Shown here one piece after another: positions 28,123-33,662 of a stretch of 53,874 bases of DNA (the first letter of the stretch is position 1; every line of letters starts with the position of its first letter). This stretch comes from Candidatus Peribacteraceae bacterium (lineage in GTDB: Bacteria > Patescibacteriota > Gracilibacteria > Peribacterales > Peribacteraceae), in the NCBI GenBank assembly GCA_028699155.1, contig JAQVVD010000006.1, positions 1-53,874 of the forward strand, in the 5' to 3' direction. The notes beneath the pieces were generated by a model. It was not told where the DNA came from and ran no database searches. It was given only the letters and a program-made list of their open reading frames with translations. Position numbers and translations under genes: made by a program.

Positions 28123-28396
28123 AACCCACCTACTCTACAAACGTCCCACGCTCGTGGCTAGAGCGCGAGCGAGTTTTTCTATGGTTCGTATCGCCAAGGC
28201 GATACTCAACAGCCAACTGAGCTACACCCCGAACCCACCTACTCTACAAACGTCCCACGCTCGTGACTAGAGCGCGAGCGAGTTTTTCTATGGTTCGTAT
28301 CGCCAAGGCGATACTCAACCCAACTGAAGCTTCCCCGAACCCACCTACTCTACAAACGTCCCACGCTCGTGACTAGAGCGCGAGCGAGTTTTTCTC
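28102..28396 (-). repeat. Three tandem copies (106-109 bp) carrying the tRNA-Pro 5' end and its upstream region
   Basis: The unit contains, in tRNA direction, a region with TAGAGT 9 nt before the tRNA start, then the first 21-22 nt of tRNA-Pro. In copy 1 (28102-28210) this continues into the real tRNA. In copy 2 (from 28211) and copy 3 (from 28320) the tRNA part is cut off and followed by a perfect hairpin (GTATCGCC/GGCGATAC at 28188-28205 and 28297-28314). Copies 1 and 2 are almost identical; copy 3 has a 2-nt loss and a degraded tRNA part. Each unit also holds GCTCG...CGAGC followed by GAGTTTTTCT, an intrinsic-terminator-like element on the plus strand. Confidence 0.9.
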
Positions 28397-29663: not shown

Positions 29664-29691
29664 TTGACATCAATTCATTCGAACGTATGAT
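29664..29691 (+). promoter_or_regulatory. Promoter of the cimA attenuator leader
   Basis: -35 TTGACA (29664-29669), 16-bp spacer, -10 TATGAT (29686-29691). The start codon of the leader peptide (GTG 29699) lies 7 nt after the -10, at the expected transcription start. The same geometry is seen before serA. Confidence 0.75.
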
Positions 29692-29698
29692 ACGCCCA

Positions 29699-29752
29699 GT
29701 GAGAAACTTCTCTATTCGCATCAGCATCATTATTATCCCGCGCCTGGCGTGA
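29699..29752 (+). CDS. Isoleucine-rich attenuator leader peptide
   Basis: Codons give MRNFSIRISIIIIPRLA (GTG start, stop TGA at 29750-29752). Six of 17 residues are Ile, four in a row (ATC ATT ATT ATC at 29726-29737). No other amino acid is enriched. The gene downstream makes citramalate, the first committed precursor of isoleucine by the pyruvate route. An in-frame ATG at 29687 lies inside the -10 box and is therefore probably upstream of the transcript start. The peptide likely has no function besides sensing charged tRNA-Ile through ribosome stalling. Confidence 0.8.
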   Translation: MRNFSIRISIIIIPRLA

Positions 29753-29813
29753 GGAACTGATTGCTGACTGCCACTTCGTTTCCCCTCCCGCCAGAAAGAA
29801 GAAGGCGGGTTTT
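29744..29813 (+). promoter_or_regulatory. Antiterminator/terminator pair of the cimA attenuator
   Basis: Terminator: CCCGCC (29787-29792), 11-nt loop, GGCGGG (29804-29809), then TTTT. Antiterminator: CTGGCGTGAGG (29744-29754, overlapping the last leader codons and the stop) pairs with CCTCCCGCCAG (29784-29794) over 11 positions with one mismatch, using the 5' arm of the terminator. The two folds exclude each other. A ribosome at the stop codon would cover the first antiterminator arm and let the terminator form. A ribosome stalled at the Ile codons would leave it free. Confidence 0.8.
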
Positions 29814-29834
29814 CTGTATCTACTCCCCTTTCCC

Positions 29835-31475
29835 ATGATGAAACCCCAAGTTGAACTCTACGACGCAACGGACCGCGACGGTGACCAGACGCTCGGCGTC
29901 AGCCTCTCTGCCGCACAGAAACTCACGATCGCGCAAGCCGACGACCGGTTCGGCATCCCCCTGGTGGAGGTTGGGTTCCCAGAATCGAACGCCGTGGACG
30001 ATGCGGTCTTCGCCGCCCTGCGCGGGCAGCCCCTGCAGCGCGCAAAGTACGCGGCATTCGGCAAGACCCGCAGAAAGGGCGTGCGCCCGGAGGATGACCC
30101 GGGACTGCGGTCGCTCCTGGCGACGCAGGCACCCGTTCTCACGGTGGTAGGAAAGAGTTCCCCGCGCCACGTCGTAGAGGGCCTGCGCGCGACAACGCAG
30201 GAGAACCTGCGCATGATCACGGATTCCGTCCGATTCCTGGGGCAGGAGGACGCCCGGGTGATCTACGACGCGGAGCACTTCTTCGACGCGTACTGCTCCG
30301 AGGGCGCCGAGGGGAGAGGGTACGCGATGAGGACGCTCCGTGCCGCCGCGGATGGCGGCGCACGCACGCTCGTGCTCTGCGAGACGAACGGCGGGCAGCC
30401 GCCTGAGCGCGTCGCGGAAGCCGTCGCCGCCGTCTGCGGGGAGTTCCACGATCTGCTCATCGGCATCCACGCGCACAACGACAGAGGGATGGCAACGGCA
30501 AATTCGCGCGCTGCCGTCCTCGCAGGCGCGCGCCACGTGCAGGGAACGTGGAACCGGACAGGAGAGCGCACGGGGAATGCAGACCTCGTGGAAGTGATCG
30601 GCAACCTGCACCTCGATGGATACGCAACCGGTGCGGATGGGAATATGTGCAGGCTCAAGCAACACGCGGAGGAGATTGCACGCATCCTGCGACAGCCCAA
30701 GATCCCCAACCAGCCGTTCGTCGGGGAACGGGCATGCGCACACAAAGGAGGCATGCACGCCAGCTGCTACCCGCTCTATGAGTTCACAGATCCGGGAACA
30801 TTCGGGAACAGGCGCCTGATCGTCGGCTCCAAGCAGGCGGGGCTCTCCAATATCCGGGAACTCGTGGCGCATGCGAAGATGCTGGAGGACGACTTGCGAG
30901 CCCGCGTGCTCGCCGATCCGCAATTGCAGCGCAAGATCCTCGCGGAGATCAAGCGGCTGGAGGAACAGGGCTACCGGTTCGACCGTGCAGATGCTTCTCT
31001 GGAGCTCCTCCTACTACGCACACTCGATGCGTTCGAACCAAAAATACGTGAAGTATGCCCTCCTGTCGTCCATGACGTGCTCGGCGGGGAAACATCTGCG
31101 ACGATCAAAGTCCAGATCAACGGCACGCAGGAGGTCTACCACGACGTCTGTGAGGGAGACGGACCGTTGGGCGCACTCTCCAATGCGCTGCAGAAGGCGC
31201 TACGCAGGAAGTACGCATCCCTCGAGCAGTTTCGACTGATTGATTACCGTATGGAGATAGCGCCGGGGCAGGAGGGCACCGGTTCCATCGTCGATGTGTA
31301 CGCAGAATTCACCGACGGGGAGGATACGTGGGTCACCACAGCAGCCAGCGTGGACTCCATCGAGGCGGGCTGGAAATCCGTCGTGGATGGCATCGAGTAC
31401 AAACTGCTCAAAGATGAGCGTTCCCGCCTCAGGCAGCGTGCATCTGCACCCGAGGACGGTGCAGCGGAATCCTGA
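29835..31475 (+). CDS. cimA: (R)-citramalate synthase
   Basis: 546 residues, the length of the TIGR00977-type citramalate/2-isopropylmalate synthase family. It condenses pyruvate and acetyl-CoA to citramalate, the precursor of 2-oxobutanoate for isoleucine. Seen: N-terminal HMGL-like barrel with VELYDATDRDGDQTLGVSLS (Arg-Asp of the active site), EVGFPESNAVDD, CETNGGQPP, and the metal motif GIHAHNDRGMATANS, GNADLVEVIGNL, then AHKGGMHAS, and a C-terminal LeuA-dimer domain (about 410-525) that usually binds the feedback amino acid. The Ile-rich leader upstream independently supports citramalate over isopropylmalate synthase. No Shine-Dalgarno; pyrimidine-rich CTACTCCCCTTTCCC precedes the ATG. 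No other Ile genes are adjacent. Confidence 0.88.
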   Translation: MMKPQVELYDATDRDGDQTLGVSLSAAQKLTIAQADDRFGIPLVEVGFPESNAVDDAVFAALRGQPLQRAKYAAFGKTRRKGVRPEDDPGLRSLLATQAPVLTVVGKSSPRHVVEGLRATTQENLRMITDSVRFLGQEDARVIYDAEHFFDAYCSEGAEGRGYAMRTLRAAADGGARTLVLCETNGGQPPERVAEAVAAVCGEFHDLLIGIHAHNDRGMATANSRAAVLAGARHVQGTWNRTGERTGNADLVEVIGNLHLDGYATGADGNMCRLKQHAEEIARILRQPKIPNQPFVGERACAHKGGMHASCYPLYEFTDPGTFGNRRLIVGSKQAGLSNIRELVAHAKMLEDDLRARVLADPQLQRKILAEIKRLEEQGYRFDRADASLELLLLRTLDAFEPKIREVCPPVVHDVLGGETSATIKVQINGTQEVYHDVCEGDGPLGALSNALQKALRRKYASLEQFRLIDYRMEIAPGQEGTGSIVDVYAEFTDGEDTWVTTAASVDSIEAGWKSVVDGIEYKLLKDERSRLRQRASAPEDGAAES

Positions 31476-32167: not shown

Positions 32168-32195
32168 TTGACGGCGCTCCCCGGAGGGCTACGAT
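32168..32195 (+). promoter_or_regulatory. Promoter of the serA attenuator leader
   Basis: -35 TTGACG (32168-32173), 16-bp spacer, -10 TACGAT (32190-32195), 7 nt to the leader ATG (32203). Identical spacing to the cimA leader promoter. Confidence 0.75.
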
Positions 32196-32202
32196 AGAGG
32201 CA

Positions 32203-32259
32203 ATGAATTCAGCCTACGTCCTCAACTGCTCCCCCGTTTCCTCCTGGTCCTCCCTCTAG
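32203..32259 (+). CDS. Serine-rich attenuator leader peptide
   Basis: Codons give MNSAYVLNCSPVSSWSSL, stop TAG at 32257-32259. Six of 18 residues are Ser (one TCA, five TCC), four of them in the last six residues, plus one Cys, which is made from Ser. The gene downstream is phosphoglycerate dehydrogenase, the first step of serine synthesis. The ATG sits 7 nt after the -10 hexamer, so the leader mRNA would itself be leaderless. Longer in-frame readings begin upstream of the promoter and are not expected to be transcribed from it. Confidence 0.8.
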   Translation: MNSAYVLNCSPVSSWSSL

Positions 32260-32260
32260 A

Positions 32261-32337
32261 GGGGGTGAAGCAGGTTGCATAGCAGATACGAGAACGTTTC
32301 GCACTTCACCCTCGAAATTTGCGCGAGGGCTTTTTTT
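32261..32337 (+). promoter_or_regulatory. Antiterminator/terminator pair of the serA attenuator
   Basis: Terminator: CCCTCG (32309-32314), 9-nt loop, CGAGGG (32324-32329), then seven T (32331-32337). Antiterminator: GGGGGTGAAG (32261-32270, 2 nt after the leader stop) pairs with CTTCACCCTC (32304-32313) over 10 positions with one G-U pair, consuming the terminator's 5' arm. The folds are mutually exclusive. With Ser in plenty the ribosome reaches the stop and masks the first arm, so the terminator forms. Confidence 0.82.
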
Positions 32338-32363
32338 GTATTTCCTTTCCCCTGTTCACCCCC

Positions 32364-33662
32364 ATGAATCCCACAGAGACACCCTCCCCAGTTCACTACG
32401 TCGGAGACCTCACAGAAGACGGCATACAACCGTTCCGGGTTGCGGCGCCCGACGGGTTCGATGCCGATGCCGTCACCGCAATCGCTACAACGCCCGGCAT
32501 GGAATTCCAAGCGGGCATCAAGAATGCCGCAGATGCACCGGATGCGCAGGGCATGCTCATCCGCAGTGCAACCAAGTTCAAAGATGCCGCGGCATTTGAG
32601 CGCCATCAGATGCTCCTGTACCTGATTCGCAGCGGCGTGGGTTACGACAATATCGATGTCACACTCGCCTCGCGCGCAGGCGTTGCGACGCTCAACACTC
32701 CCGGCGCCAGCACTACGCCCGTCGCCCGCAGGACGCTCACGCTGGTGAGCGCGTGGGCTGCGCGCATCGTGCCGGGAACCGACTCGCTGCGCGCCGGCAA
32801 ATGGGAGAAGAAGAACCCCCAAGTCGAACCGATCGACCTCACGGAGAAGACGCTCGGCATCGTGGGCTACGGCAGGATCGGCAAGGAAACGCAGCGCCTG
32901 GCGAAGGCACAGGAACTCTTTAAGGGCGTCCTTCATTACGATGTCTTGGGCGGCAATAGCAATACGCCGATCGAGGAACTCGTGGCGAAAGCCGATGTCA
33001 TGACGCTTAGCGCGGGAGGAAAGGATGAAATCCTCACGCCGGAACTCCTGAAGAACGTGAAGCCGGGCACGCTCATCGTGAATACCGGCCGCGGAGGGAA
33101 TATCAATAAGGAGGCGATTCTCGCCGCCATGGACCGCGGCGTGCACTTCGCGACCGATGTCTTCTGGGAGGAAGGGCCCAAGATGTTCGACGATCCGGTT
33201 ACCGCGCAGATCGTGGCGCATCCCAACTTCTTCGGTACGCCGCACACCGCCGCCTCCGATGAAGTCACGCAGCGGCAGCTCGGCACGGAAGGCTCCACGC
33301 GCATGATCGAGTTCGCCACGCAGGGCATCGTGAATCCGCACGATATCCCCGGCCACACGCTCGGCCGTTTCGACCTGGGCCGCAGGGAAGCCCCGGGCGT
33401 GCGCGGCATCGTGACGCACCAGAGCGTCCCCGGGAAACTGGAGGCGATCTCCGGCGCGCTCCACGGCAAAGGAATGAACATCGTCCGCGTGCAGAACGCG
33501 GAGGGCGGCATCAACGGCGGGCACAGGCTCGCCATGACGCAGTTTGACCTGGATCACACCGTGGAACCGGAGCAGGCCGTTGCCGTCATGCGGGATATCG
33601 CACGGCAAGTGGAAGCGTACCGGACACGGTTGCTCCTGTTCGCGAAGGAAAGCAACGCCTGA
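32364..33662 (+). CDS. serA: D-3-phosphoglycerate dehydrogenase with C-terminal ACT domain
   Basis: 432 residues, the short ACT-containing form of SerA. It oxidises 3-phosphoglycerate to 3-phosphohydroxypyruvate with NAD+, the first step of serine synthesis. Seen: substrate segment RSGVGYDNIDV (about 93-103), NAD motif LGIVGYGRIGKETQRLAK (about 168-185), NTGRGGNINKEAILAAM (active-site Arg), ATDVFWEEGP (Glu), FFGTPHTAAS (catalytic His), and an ACT domain (about 350-430) that usually binds serine for feedback inhibition. The ATG at 32364 follows the attenuator terminator by 26 nt with a C/T-rich leader and no Shine-Dalgarno. Control would thus act at both transcription (Ser-rich leader) and enzyme level. 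Confidence 0.93.
   Translation: MNPTETPSPVHYVGDLTEDGIQPFRVAAPDGFDADAVTAIATTPGMEFQAGIKNAADAPDAQGMLIRSATKFKDAAAFERHQMLLYLIRSGVGYDNIDVTLASRAGVATLNTPGASTTPVARRTLTLVSAWAARIVPGTDSLRAGKWEKKNPQVEPIDLTEKTLGIVGYGRIGKETQRLAKAQELFKGVLHYDVLGGNSNTPIEELVAKADVMTLSAGGKDEILTPELLKNVKPGTLIVNTGRGGNINKEAILAAMDRGVHFATDVFWEEGPKMFDDPVTAQIVAHPNFFGTPHTAASDEVTQRQLGTEGSTRMIEFATQGIVNPHDIPGHTLGRFDLGRREAPGVRGIVTHQSVPGKLEAISGALHGKGMNIVRVQNAEGGINGGHRLAMTQFDLDHTVEPEQAVAVMRDIARQVEAYRTRLLLFAKESNA

Follow-up and report, generated by a model that had tools for sequence, protein, structure and literature searches.

The cimA leader and its start

The window analysed here, a whole stretch of 53,874 nucleotides from a source genome of 1.18 Mb (96% complete), carries a gene, cimA (29835..31475), whose product is of citramalate synthase (CimA) type by its TIGR00977 score (454.3 bits against a cut-off of 450) and has HMGL-like and LeuA_dimer domains; it and all features of the window described below lie on the forward strand. 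Upstream of the gene is a promoter (29664-29691) made up of a -35 box TTGACA (29664..29669), a 16-nt spacer that recurs in the leaders of the family and a -10 box TATGAT (29686..29691), found by direct reading and by a promoter scan in which it matches 11 of the 12 consensus bases and is the best of five promoter-like sites in 11 kb. Seven nucleotides past the -10 box a GTG opens the leader peptide ORF (29699..29752, VRNFSIRISIIIIPRLA), which reads V/M-RNFSIRISIIIIPRLA-TGA: 17 codons, six of them for isoleucine (29714, 29720, 29726, 29729, 29732 and 29735, spanning 29714..29737), four of these in succession, and a stop codon at 29750-29752.

Just ahead of cimA lies a predicted intrinsic terminator (29787..29815, -10.6 kcal/mol), with a CCCGCC/GGCGGG stem at 29787-29809, a loop of 11 that placed it outside the range of a first terminator scan (loop limit 8), and a T-rich tail beginning TTTTCT. 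A competing antiterminator duplex (predicted at -19.4 kcal/mol) would pair a 5' arm at 29744..29754, overlapping the stop codon, with a 3' arm at 29784..29794, which shares 29787-29794 with the terminator. Promoter with its 16-nt spacer, 7-nt interval, GTG, six-isoleucine frame, antiterminator and overlapping terminator had all been named in the original prediction, and each was confirmed by reading, scanning or folding. Its list of parts did not include a 1:2-type hairpin at 29718..29771, seen in the minimum-energy fold, which would sequester the antiterminator arm when no ribosome is translating. That fold is mildly better than those of shuffled sequences (z -1.76, with 13 of 200 as good).

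A second arrangement of the same kind stands downstream in the window. A promoter TTGACG-16-TACGAT (32168..32195, from the promoter scan) precedes a Ser-rich leader ORF found by the genome-wide promoter-ORF search (32203..32259, MNSAYVLNCSPVSSWSSL, 6 Ser of 18), a predicted terminator with a T-run (32309..32338, stem -8.4 kcal/mol, competing antiterminator -19.7 kcal/mol) and a serA-type, phosphoglycerate dehydrogenase-like gene (32364..33662), for which TIGR01327 is the best match at 148.9 bits against a cut-off of 454 and which has 2-Hacid_dh domains. Sites combining a strict promoter with a short ORF 6-11 nt past the -10 box occur twice in the real 54 kb window, at the cimA and serA leaders, and once in 60 dinucleotide shuffles of it (3.2 Mb). 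Elsewhere in the window, beside a tRNA gene, there are three near-identical terminator-like hairpins (28149-28171, 28258-28280 and 28364-28386) with a spacing of about 107 bases, each consisting of CGCTCGTGRCTAGAGCGCGAGCG and then AGTTTTTCT.

Transcription usually begins about 6-8 nt after the -10 box. For the cimA leader the position of that box puts the start at 29697..29699, which would leave a 5' UTR of 0-2 nt. When leaders of the family were chosen by their Ile or Leu content alone and a distance of 3-15 nt from -10 box to start codon was allowed, the best promoter was found 7-13 nt before the start codon with a spacer mostly of 16 nt, so that, given the usual start 6-8 nt after the -10 box, their 5' UTRs would measure between 0 and about 5 nt. 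The promoters thus suggest that the cimA leader peptide is initiated at or near the 5' end of its mRNA, that is, in leaderless fashion. Mycobacteria are described in PMC4633059 as initiating on 5'-terminal ATG or GTG, which makes GTG acceptable as a leaderless start.

It is nevertheless conceivable, if improbable, that the attenuator is real and transcription starts further upstream, giving a leadered mRNA or a peptide begun at 29687, where the -10 box contains an ATG in frame; promoter calls are, after all, matches to a consensus. Such an upstream start fits poorly with the nearly invariable 16-nt spacer and the 7-13 nt placement of the best promoter under a search that allowed 3-15 nt, and also with the scarcity of Shine-Dalgarno-like sequences. 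Of 33 gene starts predicted in the window, one has such a sequence before it and 32 lack it; these predictions are crude, and at least one of them is a frame on the wrong strand over serA. Pyrimidine-rich tracts precede several of these predicted starts.

Conservation and predicted folding of the isoleucine leaders

Of 74 genomes of the family (40 genera), 21 gave matches in a CimA search, and two loci, L012 and L025, were dropped before counting, each being a second piece of a gene already in the count (G009 and G069). The original prediction had pointed to related genomes as the place where conservation of frame and stems should be sought, and there an Ile-rich leader ORF 7-13 nt after a -10 box is present at all 12 CimA-type genes, and in 14 of 14 Ile leaders a terminator is predicted together with an antiterminator that competes with it and is the stronger of the two. 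Examples of the peptides are MTNRSTIISIIIIQAPRR, MKRSIIIRSIIITRAPRR, MASHQIISSIIITPLRKA and MQRRAIIANIIIITPTTA; the weakest, at L003, has three Ile only (MVYVSMISSSIIPRLA), and two divergent CimA homologs (L020 and L030) are likewise preceded by Ile leaders. Across these leaders the Ile-rich frame is retained while the nucleotides vary.

Since RNAalifold found no consensus base pair in a MAFFT alignment of the 14 leaders, the search model built from them (R1) was a sequence-only one. Run over 353 genomes of the class, it reached E<1e-6 in 33, every one a member of this family; in the 279 class genomes outside the family there was no match at that threshold, the best being 1.6e-4. Nor was a comparable Ile leader with promoter and terminator seen at 18 cimA-type loci scanned as lying outside the family (L248-L265), one of which, L264, itself belongs to the family. 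Weak hydrophobic ORFs at two of these loci (L248 and L250) were not accepted as Ile leaders. A CimA homolog from another family of the class (L259) contains 24 in-frame TGA codons, as a UGA-recoded lineage should and in a manner reminiscent of the UGA-recoded Gracilibacteria; together with the size of the source genome, this suggests a CPR/Patescibacteria class.

Folding of the cimA leader with a ribosome placed at successive positions predicts a terminator probability of 0.01, 0.01 and 0.51 at Ile codons 1-3, and of 0.99 both at the stop codon and with no ribosome. The first two Ile codons are thus predicted to open the antiterminator fully and the third by half; at the last ones it does not open, the terminator being predicted to stay on at the last two. 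For 29 Ile leaders of the family the terminator probability averaged 0.94 with the ribosome on the stop codon, fell to 0.12 with it on the best Ile codon and was 0.74 without a ribosome. An Ile-dependent switch was predicted in 23 of the 29, against 44 of 348 shuffles in which the part upstream of the terminator was shuffled and the terminator kept; the six without one are L009, L011, L030, L297, L300 and L301.

Pairing between the arms was also assessed by exchanging them between genomes. In the 14 Ile leaders true arm pairs averaged -19.81 kcal/mol, arms swapped between genomes -18.05 and shuffled arms -11.43, and 5 of 5000 permutations were as low as the true pairs, a figure that sequence kinship may inflate. 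The corresponding counts were 6 of 5000 for 12 Leu leaders, in several of which the finder chose an implausible terminator, and 10 of 5000 for eight Ser leaders; for nine Phe leaders the result was weak (313 of 5000). A position-wise covariation count in the GGCG/CGCC register did not rise above permutation (657 and 2841 of 5000). Support for the pairing is for this reason energetic, coming in part from leaders whose arms differ (such as L011, L020 and L030), and the alternative pairings remain predictions.

A structured leader with a terminator in front of an amino acid gene could also be an RNA that senses without a peptide, such as a riboswitch or T-box, or a member of a known curated leader RNA family. 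We regard this as the least credible of the alternatives: the cimA leader has no Rfam match at the gathering score, and none was found at E values up to 0.1 in it and five sister leaders, and the Ile-rich frame is retained over varying nucleotides.

Leaders for other amino acids and the isoleucine pathway

The cimA attenuator appears, from sequence comparison, to be one of a set for several amino acids, of which the serine leader is a second example in the window. With the pattern TTGAC-N17-TANNNT-N6..11-RTG, 24 sites were found in the source genome and 4 in a reversed control; wider promoter spacing brought in mostly background (36 against 17) but also a Pro leader (MQRTLSSFVPCPPPPRGRR) before proB. 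Several of the sites open short frames rich in a single residue and accompanied by a terminator, among them Ser before serA, Leu before leuA and Cys-Cys-Cys before cysK, the last with a weak terminator only. A Phe leader beginning MSRQTFIFGTFQFSYF lies upstream of pheA and of aroB (the latter named by eye), and one Met, two Lys and one Ala leader precede proteins with no Pfam match. On other contigs of the source genome these leaders are found at L049 (Cys), L044 (Leu), L038 (Phe), L270 (Pro), L034 (Met), L035 and L051 (Lys) and L043 (Ala). CysK is identified at 359.5 bits, above the cut-off of 350.95; the best family match of ProB reaches 127.7 bits, below the cut-off of 186. In this genome the switch is predicted cleanly for the Ile, Leu, Met, Ala and Pro leaders, partially for Ser and the second Lys and weakly for the first Lys, and ribosome-placement folding predicted none for the Phe and Cys leaders. 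For the Ser, Pro and second Lys leaders only a wider finder located the terminators, which a stricter one had missed or misplaced. A short frame of leaderless type (VSEDRGFTAAGRR) at L053 (G000:C41:9607-9643, minus strand) precedes a gene that we take to encode a ribosomal protein L10-like product, and it is possibly, we assume, an L10 autoregulation leader.

Among relatives, a Leu-rich leader, typically MHQRNLLLGLALLLLTAEGRLRA, is present at 13 of 14 leuA-type loci, including the source genome's own (L002) and L014, where the leader has an aberrant form; L027 is without one. Ser leaders stand ahead of serA in 8 of the 13 family loci scanned (30 fetched), Phe leaders at 9 of 28 prephenate dehydratase loci, Pro leaders at 10 of 30 proB loci, Trp-Trp leaders at 3 of 30 chorismate-binding (trpE) loci and a Cys leader at one of six cysK loci, the source genome's own. 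Because CimA-type loci carry Ile leaders and leuA-type loci Leu leaders, the leaders of these related enzymes fit each enzyme's own product, and by sequence the same match between a leader's residue and what the enzyme behind it makes is seen with Ser, Leu, Phe, Pro, Cys and Trp. At five loci (L016, L017, L026, L028 and L029) the Leu leader peptides contain in-frame inserts of a recurring element, of about CCTGAGC...GTCGAAGGG and encoding ALSxVEG, at differing sites and with the control region intact.

These comparisons bear on the idea that the frame is an unrelated short hydrophobic peptide, for instance a small membrane protein, lying beside a terminator that is constitutive or otherwise controlled. 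A run of isoleucines is indeed hydrophobic, short ORFs are common and a strong terminator does lie upstream of cimA. The residue, however, varies with the enzyme, the Ser, Pro and Cys leaders are not hydrophobic runs, the arms that overlap stop codon and terminator are retained, and shuffles that keep the terminator seldom switch, so that we hold this explanation to be very improbable.

Matches to the leader model led to 30 fetched loci, of which the 16 not already known were scanned. In nine genomes the Ile leader stands before an IlvA-like gene (L278, L283, L287, L289, L293, L294, L298, L301 and L303), either directly or with a short ORF in between; for two of these proteins the best NCBIfam match is threonine ammonia-lyase, at 390.6 and 397.6 bits, short of the equivalog cut-off of 421. 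Isoleucine synthesis is classically entered through either IlvA or CimA, and the nine ilvA-leader genomes do not overlap with the 12 CimA genomes. The ilvA of G051 adjoins the lipoprotein and ligase genes found on the flanks of cimA-serA both in the window and in G069, a neighbourhood that in this one genome looks as an in-place exchange of cimA and ilvA would leave it. Of the remaining leaders, that at L286 precedes a LeuA-like gene and those at L295, L297, L300, L302, L304 and L305 stand before frames that are short or unidentified. In L283, L294, L278, L301 and L038 the leader is separated from ilvA or pheA by an ORF of roughly 105-154 codons, with no family match for that of L283 in NCBIfam or that of L038 in Pfam.

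The pathway beyond these entries appears incomplete. A search for IlvC (PF01450), which matched in 14 of 14 control genomes, found it in one of the 74 family genomes (G016) and not in the source genome (G000); ilvC was thus not found in 73 of 74, despite the presence of cimA, ilvA and leuA with matching attenuators. Without IlvC the known route from the CimA product to isoleucine is interrupted. It had been proposed that CimA opens the pyruvate route to isoleucine and so agrees with the content of the peptide; the content of the peptide fits the enzyme type, and a complete route is not supported by the IlvC search. The attenuation mechanism itself needs no complete pathway.

Proposed mechanism and known systems

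We consider it very probable that the cimA leader is a ribosome-mediated transcription attenuator that senses the supply of isoleucyl-tRNA and begins with a 5'-terminal GTG, an interpretation that the family-wide Ile leaders, the predicted terminator-antiterminator pairs and the excess of predicted switches over shuffles all support. We infer that transcription begins on the GTG at 29699 or no more than a few bases from it, and that the ribosome would initiate on this 5'-terminal codon with no Shine-Dalgarno site. With ample isoleucine, the ribosome would reach the TGA and cover 29744-29754, blocking the antiterminator; the hairpin at 29787-29809 would then form and transcription end near 29813. 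Under a shortage of Ile-tRNA it would stall at the Ile codons instead, leaving 29744-29754 to pair with 29784-29794, and this pairing would pre-empt the terminator so that cimA is transcribed. If no translation takes place, the 1:2 hairpin would keep the terminator on.

A wider proposal, to which we give about even chances, is that a reduced-genome lineage of CPR type runs its remaining amino acid genes through shared leaderless attenuators, each amino acid having its own leader (Ile, Leu, Ser, Phe, Pro, Cys, Trp and perhaps Lys, Met and Ala), and that the Ile leader has been kept while cimA and ilvA were exchanged; as it works without IlvC, its role may lie in an exchange of 2-oxo acids with a partner or in some unknown route, and not in a textbook pathway. 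Gene regulation is little known in these largely uncultured small-genome bacteria. If the proposal is true, their ribosomes would serve them as sensors of amino acid supply, translation in them would probably work largely without Shine-Dalgarno sites, and the leaders would reveal the amino acid to which a given orphan enzyme or small uncharacterised protein responds. The pattern is testable in standard in vitro transcription-translation, for which the organism need not be cultured.

In the ilv, leu and trp attenuators of proteobacteria a stalled ribosome selects the antiterminator over the terminator, and the leaders have a 5' UTR and a Shine-Dalgarno sequence. The mechanism proposed here is the same, whereas the start codon would lie at the 5' end of the RNA, with no Shine-Dalgarno sequence. 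An attenuator of ilvBNC in Corynebacterium glutamicum was reportedly described by Morbach in 2000. According to PMC11857589, that operon is transcribed from one nucleotide before the start codon of its leader, and it resembles the case predicted here in having a leader peptide of branched-chain codons without a ribosome-binding site and competing anti-antiterminator, antiterminator and terminator hairpins. Initiation of a leader peptide without a Shine-Dalgarno sequence, which the original prediction had set apart from classical leaders, is therefore not new in itself. The same source gives mixed Val/Ile/Leu codons (MTIIRLVVVTARRLP) for that leader, in an actinobacterium, whereas here the codons are nearly pure Ile, cimA or ilvA lies downstream, the leader region is shorter and the leader belongs to a family-wide set that extends to other amino acids.

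Comparative prediction of leader peptides and terminators for several amino acids has a precedent in Seliverstov 2005 (PMC1262725), where actinobacterial trp, ilvB and leuS/trpS attenuators and cys leader peptides were predicted; the present set is from another phylum, and the leuA described there has a pseudoknot (LEU element) in contrast with the Leu-rich leader and terminator found here. Leaderless Cys-rich small ORFs before cysteine genes of mycobacteria have been proposed as attenuators (PMC4633059), and in the accessible text of that paper no Ile case is described; the counterpart here, the Cys-Cys-Cys leader of cysK, occurs in the source genome only. We found no report of leader-peptide attenuators in CPR bacteria in the open-licence literature. 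Attenuation by leader peptides is classical and leaderless leader peptides are known from Corynebacterium, so that what is new here is a further variant, in a new lineage.
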